Of a stretch of 53,045 bases of DNA, positions 1 to 51,986 are shown piece after piece. The notes beneath the pieces were generated by a model. It worked only from the letters and a program-made list of their open reading frames with translations, was not told the origin of the DNA and did no database searches. A program made the translations under genes and the position numbers. The DNA comes from Pirellulales bacterium. Lineage in GTDB: Bacteria; Planctomycetota; Planctomycetia; Pirellulales; JADZDJ01. The DNA lies in contig DATJYL010000216.1 in assembly GCA_035499655.1 (NCBI GenBank), positions 1 to 53,045 on the forward strand. The letters run 5' to 3'. Position 1 is the stretch's first letter. Every line of letters starts with the position of its first letter.

Positions 1-237
1 GCCGCTGGTGGGCAAGTCCTTGGGCGGATTCAGCGGCCCAGGCTGTCCGTCGGCGCCCAGCAGCGGCCACAGCCGGACCAGCGACGGATTCTGCTCCACG
101 CTGGGCGCATCATCGAACACCAACGGCGAACCCATCGCCCGACCATACACCCACCACAACACGACGCCCAGCACGATTACGGCTACCCAGGAAAAAATCG
201 CATCTTTTCGCTGGAGAGGATGATTCTTGGTCAGCAT
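1..237 (-). CDS. N-terminus of a membrane protein (truncated by the window edge)
   Basis: A 79-codon open frame starts at an ATG at 237 on the minus strand and runs off the left end without a stop. Residues 1-12 are polar and basic. Residues 13-31 form a strongly hydrophobic segment rich in V, I, L and W. A short motif (SPLVFDD, residues 37-43) and a Pro-rich stretch follow. An FDD-type motif just after the first membrane helix, followed by a 'xQNPSL' stretch, resembles the N-terminus of large bacterial TPR/glycosyltransferase-like membrane proteins. That family resemblance is from memory and only the N-terminus is present, so function is left open. The gene probably has its own promoter in the 60-bp gap separating it from the carbonic anhydrase stop. 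Confidence 0.6.
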   Translation of the reverse strand, partial: MLTKNHPLQRKDAIFSWVAVIVLGVVLWWVYGRAMGSPLVFDDAPSVEQNPSLVRLWPLLGADGQPGPLNPPKDLPTSG

Positions 238-302: not shown

Positions 303-980
303 TTAAATCGACGCCATGTCTAGGCGCGGCGGCGTGGTCGATTCAGGCGCGTGCTCTCGGAGCGAAACAAATTGGCCCGCGTCCGGGCTGAAGCCGAATA
401 CTTCACCCGTTTCTAGCTTGTACACCCAACCGTAAATTTGCAAATCGCCCCGTGCCATGCGCACGGCCACCGCGGGATGGGTGCGCAAGTTCTCCAATTG
501 GCACAGCACATTTTCCTGAACGGCGACGTTCAATTTCGCATCTTCTGGCAATTCGGTGTAATTTTCCTGAACAATCCGCCGGGCGCTTTCCGCGTTGGCC
601 AGCCAGCCGCGGACGCTTGGCATGCGCGATAAACCGTCCAGGTTCAGCAACCCTTGAACTGCACCGCAACGAGAATGGCCGCAGACAATAATGAATTCCA
701 CCTTCAACTGGGTGGCCGCATATTCAATGGCCGCGGCTGCCGCGCCGTCGGCGGTATGCGGCGTAAACGGCGGAACAATGTTGCCGATGTTTCGCAAAAT
801 GAACAATTCCCCCGGCTTCGTCTGTGTGATTAAATTGGGGTTCACCCGCGAATCCGCGCAGGTAATGAACAGGCCTGGCGGACTCTGGGTTTCCGCCAGA
901 CGCTCGAAAAACTTGCGTTGATTGGCAAACACGTTGTTTTGAAACTGATGGACGCCGGCCACCAGCCGATGCAATTCCAT
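303..980 (-). CDS. Beta-class carbonic anhydrase
   Basis: This cytosolic zinc enzyme interconverts CO2 and bicarbonate. The zinc-ligand pattern of beta-carbonic anhydrases is complete: C41-A-D43-S-R45 and H102-S-R-C105 (within CGHSRCGA), with the conserved RNIGN stretch around residue 63. The 225-residue length fits the family. The frame stays open to 1094, but I chose the ATG at 980 because a GAGG lies 8 bases upstream and the conserved fold begins right after it; the upstream 38 codons look unlike any family N-terminus. It is a single gene. No bicarbonate transporter (SulP) is adjacent, so a link to transport is not supported here. Confidence 0.93.
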   Translation of the reverse strand: MELHRLVAGVHQFQNNVFANQRKFFERLAETQSPPGLFITCADSRVNPNLITQTKPGELFILRNIGNIVPPFTPHTADGAAAAAIEYAATQLKVEFIIVCGHSRCGAVQGLLNLDGLSRMPSVRGWLANAESARRIVQENYTELPEDAKLNVAVQENVLCQLENLRTHPAVAVRMARGDLQIYGWVYKLETGEVFGFSPDAGQFVSLREHAPESTTPPRLDMASI

Positions 981-1396
981 AGCGAATACCTCAGCGGGAA
1001 GATTTCTGAAAGGATGATTTTCAAATCGGTCAGGCTGATTCCGGCCAAAGCGCCGTCCACGGTGTGCAAAATCATGAACGAACGAGCACGGCAATTTATT
1101 ATCGCTGAAATTTAGATTAAAGCGAAGAGGCCTTTACGAATGGTAGTGGGCCAATTTGAACATAGCCCGACTGTGTCAGTCGGGAAAAGCGGCTGTCGGA
1201 ATTTCAAATTGTCCCACCACCTTACGAATCTCTCCATGAGCGGCGGCTCACACTATACGATTCCCGCTTCTGCTATGATGGGCGAAATGTTCATGATTTG
1301 TTCTATGTGCATACACCGGTCAGCACCTATCATCTCATACTACGGCTCACAGGCCGTTCAAACCGCTGGCCATTCTGGCGCCGGCAAAAGATAAAG
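981..1396. other. Intergenic region between divergent genes, carrying the 80-bp mobile element
   Basis: This 416-bp gap separates the carbonic anhydrase (minus) from the oxidoreductase (plus). It should hold both promoters. I see only a weak minus-strand candidate: GATAAT (rc of ATTATC, 1099-1104), with a TTCGCT 17 bases upstream. The MITE copy at 1142-1221 sits in the middle. No convincing small gene is present. Confidence 0.5.
1142..1221 (+). mobile_element. 80-bp MITE-like palindromic element, copy A
   Basis: The ends are inverted repeats: bases 1142-1160 match the reverse complement of 1203-1221 at 17 of 19 positions. Inside is a second perfect hairpin, CCCGACTG-TGT-CAGTCGGG (1166-1184). 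An 8-bp direct repeat, TTACGAAT, flanks it at 1134-1141 and 1222-1229, as expected of a target-site duplication. An identical 79-base copy in reverse orientation lies at 51817-51895 with a different 8-bp duplication. The element has no coding capacity, so it would need a transposase in trans that makes 8-bp duplications. The family is not identified. Confidence 0.85.
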
Positions 1397-2554
1397 ATGC
1401 AATTCATGCCTCATGATAAACAACAAACGTCTCAAACTTGGCCGCAATCGCTGGCGATTGCCGGCGCTTGGGGGTACATCGGTCGTAAGTTTCTCGAAGC
1501 GTCACAACAGCTTGGCCTCCAGCCCAGCGTTTTCGATCCAGGACCCGCTCCCGCCGACATACCCACCGATCAATACCGCCGAATCATTGAAGAAGAAGCA
1601 TTCTATCGTCAGCCCGCTGATTTATTTCATCTGGCTTTGCCCCCCGACGCGCGGCAGCGAGGATTGGATATTTTGCTTAGGCGGAGCCGCAGCGGACCCC
1701 TGGCCATCTTGAACGAAAAGCCAATGGTCGCGCCGGAGCATCCCCAACATGGTCGGCAGCTCATCAAGGCTGTCGACCACAGCGGGGCCCTGATGTTGTT
1801 CGATTTTCTGGAGTTGTACAGTCCGTTGACGGAAATAGTTCTCGGTCATTTATCAAAATTTCGCGAAGTGACCATCCATTCGTTCGATATGCTGCGCTCC
1901 AAAGATCGGGAAGATATTGCCAACTTGCGCAACTACAAACGCATGACGCCGATTCAATTCCAGGAATCGGTACATTGCCTCGCGTGGATTTTATTTTTCC
2001 TTGCTCGGTTGCGCGGCGGCCTGGCGGCAGCCCTGGACGGCGGTCTTAAAATCACCGCCGAATCGGAACCATACTCCCCGCCAAATCCGCAAGATTATCC
2101 CTACGTGGTTGATGGCCGATGTGTGTGGCAACTGCAGTGTGGTGAAACTTCTGTGACGGCGCGCACCGATTTCAAACGCCACGCCCCCTGGACCAAACGG
2201 CGTGTCGCGCGAGGTATCGCCGATGGTCAACCATTCGAAATCGAAGCGGAATATCTGGAGGGAAAAAAGCGGCTGCTGATCAATGGCGTCGACCAGCAGG
2301 TCGATCCGCGAGCCAATTCTTACGCGCAAGTGATCAGCACTTTCGCGCGTTGGCGCGGGAAATTAAGTCGCGAAGAACTGCTCGCCGGCGTGTACCCCAA
2401 CCCGCGCTTTGCACAGGTTACGTATCAGTTATCAAGCGCTCTATGGCGCGCCGGGTTCGATCGGCGGCCCCTCCAATTCAAGAGTCTTCAATCGCTGTTG
2501 GATTTTGACGCCGGTTTCGCCGCCGCGGTGCCCTGGCTGGGACGATATGGATGA
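1397..2554 (+). CDS. Gfo/Idh/MocA-like NAD(P)-dependent oxidoreductase
   Basis: The predicted 385-residue protein begins with a Rossmann nucleotide-binding loop (GAWGYIG, residues 23-29). It then has the family's E-K-P motif (N-EKP-M, residues 107-109), in which the Lys acts in hydride-transfer catalysis in characterised members. An alpha/beta C-terminal domain follows, as in sugar and inositol dehydrogenases. The substrate is unknown. The second half contains a long HCLAWILFF helix and a WQLQCGETSV strand. The ATG at 1397 is used; a second ATG at 1406 is equally possible and neither has a clear ribosome-binding site, while the frame upstream of 1397 is Arg/Trp-rich and unconvincing. It converges on the sugar kinase at 2611, so a carbohydrate role would be reasonable but is inference. 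Confidence 0.75.
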   Translation: MQFMPHDKQQTSQTWPQSLAIAGAWGYIGRKFLEASQQLGLQPSVFDPGPAPADIPTDQYRRIIEEEAFYRQPADLFHLALPPDARQRGLDILLRRSRSGPLAILNEKPMVAPEHPQHGRQLIKAVDHSGALMLFDFLELYSPLTEIVLGHLSKFREVTIHSFDMLRSKDREDIANLRNYKRMTPIQFQESVHCLAWILFFLARLRGGLAAALDGGLKITAESEPYSPPNPQDYPYVVDGRCVWQLQCGETSVTARTDFKRHAPWTKRRVARGIADGQPFEIEAEYLEGKKRLLINGVDQQVDPRANSYAQVISTFARWRGKLSREELLAGVYPNPRFAQVTYQLSSALWRAGFDRRPLQFKSLQSLLDFDAGFAAAVPWLGRYG

Positions 2555-51730: not shown

Positions 51731-51815
51731 TCGTGAATTCCGGTGTCCATTGGCTATTTTGGGCCTGCGACCTAGGGACGAATTTGGGCGTCTTGCTGCA
51801 AAATCTGCTTCCGGG

Positions 51816-51895
51816 AGTGGTGGGACAATTTGAAATTCCGACAGCCGCTTTTCCCGACTGACACAGTCGGGCTATGTTCAAATTGGCCCACTACC
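51816..51895 (-). mobile_element. 80-bp MITE-like palindromic element, copy B
   Basis: Bases 51817-51895 are identical over all 79 positions to the reverse complement of 1142-1220; only the terminal base differs. The 8-bp direct repeat CTTCCGGG flanks it at 51808-51815 and 51896-51903. This differs from the TTACGAAT of copy A, so each copy inserted independently. It lies 86 bp after the last exopolysaccharide gene and 92 bp before pyrF. Confidence 0.85.
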
Positions 51896-51986
51896 CTTCC
51901 GGGTGACCCCTGTGGTGATTTGCCGCTTCGCATTATCATTTTTACAGCCCAAAACGCGAGTTGCATTAGCTTTTCGGTCGCCTGCG

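Follow-up and report, generated by a model that had tools for sequence, protein, structure and literature searches.

A recently active 80-bp MITE with IS1-like ends and a REP-like hairpin in a Pirellulales bacterium

Introduction

REPs and MITEs are usually regarded as distinct classes of repeat, each with its own enzymes. Within the 53,045-nucleotide stretch of Pirellulales DNA analysed here (the window, contig C216 of its assembly) lies a short element with inverted ends and an inner hairpin, which raises the question of what moves the element and where its hairpin came from. The best explanation, and in our judgement a likely one, is that an IS1-like DDE transposase acts in trans to move a MITE that encloses a RAYT-associated REP-like hairpin. 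The MITE is real, recently active and ordinary in mechanism; it is unusual in being a DDE-type MITE that carries a REP of the RAYT type.

Structure of the MITE and its copies in the window

Direct reading of the window confirmed the 80-bp MITE described in the original prediction, including the exact 8-bp repeats at its borders (Table 1). The element is short and without coding capacity, its ends match as inverted repeats at 17 of 19 positions, and its inner stem, CCCGACTG-TGT-CAGTCGGG, comprises 8 bp. The fold of the 80-bp sequence lies 4-5 s.d. below those of dinucleotide shuffles, and a search of window positions 800-1600 against Rfam at gathering thresholds yielded no match. The second copy that had been reported for the window is likewise present, with an exact duplication of its own and with a pyrF-like gene (OMPdecase domain) ~90 bp downstream. 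Separately, bases 1-163 of the window match C32:15941-16103 of the same genome at 98%, and they possibly represent a repeat that ended the contig.

Table 1. Positions of the two MITE copies and their component features in the window
Feature	Position	Strand	Remarks
MITE copy 1	1142..1221	+	80 bp; letter-identical to genome-wide consensus
Left target-site duplication TTACGAAT, copy 1	1134..1141	.	read directly
Right target-site duplication TTACGAAT, copy 1	1222..1229	.	read directly
Terminal inverted repeat GGTAGTGGGCCAATTTGAA, copy 1	1142..1160	+	
Terminal inverted repeat GGTGGTGGGACAATTTGAA, copy 1	1203..1221	-	
REP-like hairpin ATAGCCCGACTGTGTCAGTCGGG	1162..1184	+	8-bp stem, 3-nt loop
MITE copy 2	51816..51895	-	80 bp; outer end with one changed base
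Target-site duplication CTTCCGGG, copy 2	51808..51815	.	exact 8 bp
Target-site duplication CTTCCGGG, copy 2	51896..51903	.	exact 8 bp

Copies and target-site duplications in the genome

The genome to which the window belongs (G000) is represented by a 4.54-Mb assembly of 244 contigs, in which repeats are often lost. A blastn search with the 80-bp query revealed 40 copies, and at least 43 places are occupied once more diverged copies are counted, with one copy truncated at the end of a contig. For the 42 copies with both flanks, we compared the two flanking sequences by script over lengths of 8 and 9 bases. Duplications of 8 bp were found at 35 copies (27 matching at 8/8 positions and 8 at 7/8) and duplications of 9 bp at five others (3 at 9/9, 2 at 8/9), and no pairing of left and right flanks from different copies matched with equal quality (0 of 1,722). 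Many copies lacking duplications, which had been named beforehand as evidence against the element, were therefore not observed: 40 of the 42 retain an exact or one-mismatch duplication, and the remaining two are diverged copies that share 96% and 82% identity with the query. The genome-wide copies support the proposal of a non-autonomous element that generates 8-bp target duplications. Nine copies agree with one another in every letter, and copies diverge from the consensus by 3% on average; together with the retained duplications, this fits the recent MITE activity that had been suspected from the two window copies.

The comparison with empty sites proposed at the outset was informative in part. 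In the sister genome G001, the region upstream of the pyrF ortholog lacks the MITE, but the flanks fail to align up to the insertion point, and this site consequently provides weak evidence for insertion in the window's own lineage. At the site of copy 1, no DNA match to the surroundings was found in the sister genome. A gene seemingly disrupted by a MITE copy at another locus (L002) was dropped as a candidate, as the 459-codon frame of the reconstructed empty site reads like low-complexity antisense sequence.

IS1-like transposons with matching ends

The original prediction did not recognise that the MITE ends belong to a group of IS1-like transposons. The ends of these transposons read GGTAGTGGGTCAGTTTGAA, from which the MITE end GGTAGTGGGCCAATTTGAA is 2 mismatches away over 19 positions, and the element of genome G051 comes closer still, its ends (GGTAGTGGGCCAGTTTGAA) showing 1 mismatch over 19. 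Matches to the end pattern occur in 20 of 296 genomes of the order, with the reversed-pattern control near zero. Complete transposase-bearing elements flanked by 8-bp duplications were found in G005 (2998 bp, AGCACTTC), in G001, which is of the same genus as the window's genome (3284 bp, GAGATGCC), and in G051 (4386 bp, CGGCATCG); their transposases are ~290 aa each, that of G051 being split by a frame change.

A profile of five group transposases, searched against the window's own genome, led to an element at C1:3071-5936 (2866 bp, 8-bp duplication GAATGAGC) with a stop-free 288-aa transposase ORF whose product is 85% identical to that of G001. Its ends, GGTAGTGCGTCAGTCTAATC, are several mismatches from those of the MITE and, as they match less well, do not make it an obvious partner. 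A more distant element of the same genome, in C214, spans 4612 bp with a 9-bp duplication. The exact autonomous partner was not seen among the assembled contigs, and contig C216 contains no IS1-like transposase match, in agreement with the original prediction that the transposase lies outside the window. We infer the particular transposase that would have moved the MITE from sequence comparison: an IS1-like DDE transposase recognising GGTAGTGGGNCARTTTGAA-type ends would act on the element in trans, and insertion would create the target duplications of 8 bp, or sometimes 9 bp.

A wider set of 80 related transposase loci, from many phyla, bears on the length of the duplication. Elements were accepted as complete if they had a flanking direct repeat of 8, 9 or 10 bp and ends starting with GG that matched at no fewer than 13 of 20 positions; 25 loci qualified, and for all 25 the best duplication length was 8 bp rather than 9 or 10. 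As this set was selected by the presence of a duplication, it gives the length of duplications and not their frequency. The ends of the accepted elements agree with GGTAGTGGGTCAGTTTGAAT, and their sizes (1852 to 3468 bp) in every case exceed that of the transposase gene alone.

Judged by its sequence, the transposase of the group that would include the MITE's partner is a distant IS1-like DDE transposase. The group proteins match the NCBIfam IS1 model (NF033558) with E values of about 1e-13 to 1e-17, end in an ERxNxxxR...FSKK motif, and belong to elements with 8-9-bp duplications, all of which resembles the IS1 family. They differ from that family in being encoded by a single ORF of about 290 aa, in residing in complete elements of 1.9-4.6 kb with passenger genes, and in scoring 52-64 bits against a model cut-off of 100 (C1, 51.7; G001, 54.3; C214, 63.6). 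With the Pfam model DDE_Tnp_IS1 (PF03400, cut-off 24.1), the C214 protein scores above the cut-off (34.3) and the C1 protein below it (17.5). A PDB profile search with the transposase alignment returned nothing meaningful.

Transposases of other families were also considered. Neither IS256 (PF00872) nor ISL3 (PF01610) transposases had a match in the window's own genome at E 0.001. Elements of the IS1595 family are known to make 8-bp duplications, and the genome does contain an IS1595-family gene (C126:15039-15413) at a contig end, as expected of a repeated element. It is nevertheless very unlikely that such a transposase moves the MITE, given that the sequence upstream of this gene showed no recognisable match to the MITE ends and that IS1-like elements match these ends closely.

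The passengers of the IS1-like transposons include, in the C1 element, a gene for a 441-aa AAA/STAND-like ATPase (C1:3636-4961, L240). Several passengers elsewhere (L206 in G001:C135, L190 in G005:C88, and L297, L300, L310, L313 and L328 in other genomes) have matches among the PADLOC models for anti-phage systems of the toxin-antitoxin type, namely PD-Lambda-2_B (E 1e-39 to 4e-49), RmrA (to 2e-144) and RmrT (3e-51), and several others have no PADLOC match.

A REP-like hairpin between the MITE ends

The original prediction also did not recognise the inner hairpin as a REP-like repeat in its own right. In the window's own genome, ATAGCCCGACTGTGTCAGTCGGG has about 49 occurrences, nearly all within the MITE, and in the sister genome G001 it has about 55-56 (reversed-pattern control, 0). 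Many perfect hairpins of G001 sit in flanks that do not resemble MITE ends. One RAYT gene in each genome (C145 of the own genome and C39 of the sister, encoding proteins 65% identical to each other) has MITE-type hairpins on both sides, as do none of the 16 other Y1_Tnp loci inspected in the two genomes. When the RAYT-flanking stems, CCCGACCG/CGGTCGGG and CCCGACTC/GAGTCGGG, are compared with that of the MITE, the inner-stem changes are paired, or compensatory. The free hairpins of G001 and these variants with paired changes make capture of a REP-like sequence between IS1-like ends the best reading of the hairpin.

The stand-alone hairpins might alternatively be nothing but decayed MITEs, the hairpin having been born within the MITE. 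About five hairpins of G001 (L090, L092, L096, L088 and L094) do retain degenerate MITE ends. Decay should, however, affect ends and hairpin alike, whereas many sister sites preserve a perfect 22-nt hairpin in flanks unlike the ends; these sites, together with the RAYT gene bracketed by compensatory variants in each genome, make a MITE-born hairpin improbable.

The REP-like hairpin, of the kind associated with RAYT (HUH/Y1) genes, was probably captured by the MITE rather than the reverse. The relics of the sister genome share the MITE's end-ACATAG junction, and because the same end-to-hairpin junction is present there, the capture probably preceded the split from the sister species.

The presence of a REP-like hairpin and of a RAYT gene in the same genome could also be taken to mean that the hairpin, and not the ends, drives dispersal. 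Target duplications are not expected of REP dispersal, and nearly all hairpins of the genome belong to complete 80-bp elements that have both ends and are flanked by duplications, so that RAYT-driven spread is scarcely credible here. With both ends and a duplication on nearly all copies, it seems to be DDE activity that drove the recent spread in this species.

Relation to known repeats

In being short, non-coding and present in many near-identical copies with inverted ends and target duplications, the element resembles bacterial MITEs such as MITEAba12 and Nezha. It differs from them in that its ends are of the IS1-like group and in that it surrounds a REP-like hairpin that also occurs independently in its own and the sister genome. 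Like the REPs and REPINs associated with RAYT genes (Di Nocera et al., 2013, PMC3733652; Bertels and Rainey, 2011, PMC3116915), the hairpins are short and dispersed, include some inverted pairs, and flank a RAYT gene; unlike these, the window element carries the tag ATAG rather than the REP-type GTAG, and most hairpin copies here lie within a DDE-type MITE.

One precedent is recorded for REPs inside palindromes: in Anabaena variabilis, GTAG-15 dimers occur within long inverted repeats (Di Nocera et al., 2013; PMC3733652), an arrangement similar to that described here. The passage on GTAG-15 gives neither a transposase family nor a target duplication, and it does not pursue the association of REPs with other repeats. 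Searches of the open-licence PMC literature turned up no IS1-type MITE described as containing a REP, although an earlier report is possible. The novelty here lies in recognising the inner hairpin of the MITE as a REP-like palindrome. The REP-carrying MITE has over 40 recent copies in one species, with relics and free REPs in its sister, and this pair of genomes allows the REP and MITE systems to be distinguished and the order of capture to be tested.

Other MITEs enclosing hairpins

A second MITE family of the same genome (81-141 bp, IS1-like ends GGTAGTGGGTCAGTTTGA) appears older, its duplications having mostly decayed. Its members enclose GTAG-tagged hairpins, some as inverted pairs (L060, L063, L064, L065 and L066), and free GTAG hairpins of the matching type occur nearby in L061. 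In G001, 133-bp elements with IS1-like ends surround another palindrome, which is also found without ends among the sampled G001 loci. Short elements in G181 and G030 enclose hairpins as well, with a GTAG tag in the G181 MITE; a hairpin of REP type was not seen by eye in a 521-bp element of G219. It is possible, if somewhat short of probable, that IS1-like MITEs in these planctomycetes repeatedly acquire REP/REPIN hairpins, in which case an unrelated DDE transposase would be spreading sequences of a RAYT-linked repeat family.

Contig C146 of the window's genome contains a further IS1-like transposase gene (L066:2594-3485; 385-aa frame) with the end GGTAGTGTCTTAAGAG, and this gene directly adjoins a copy of the second-family MITE.
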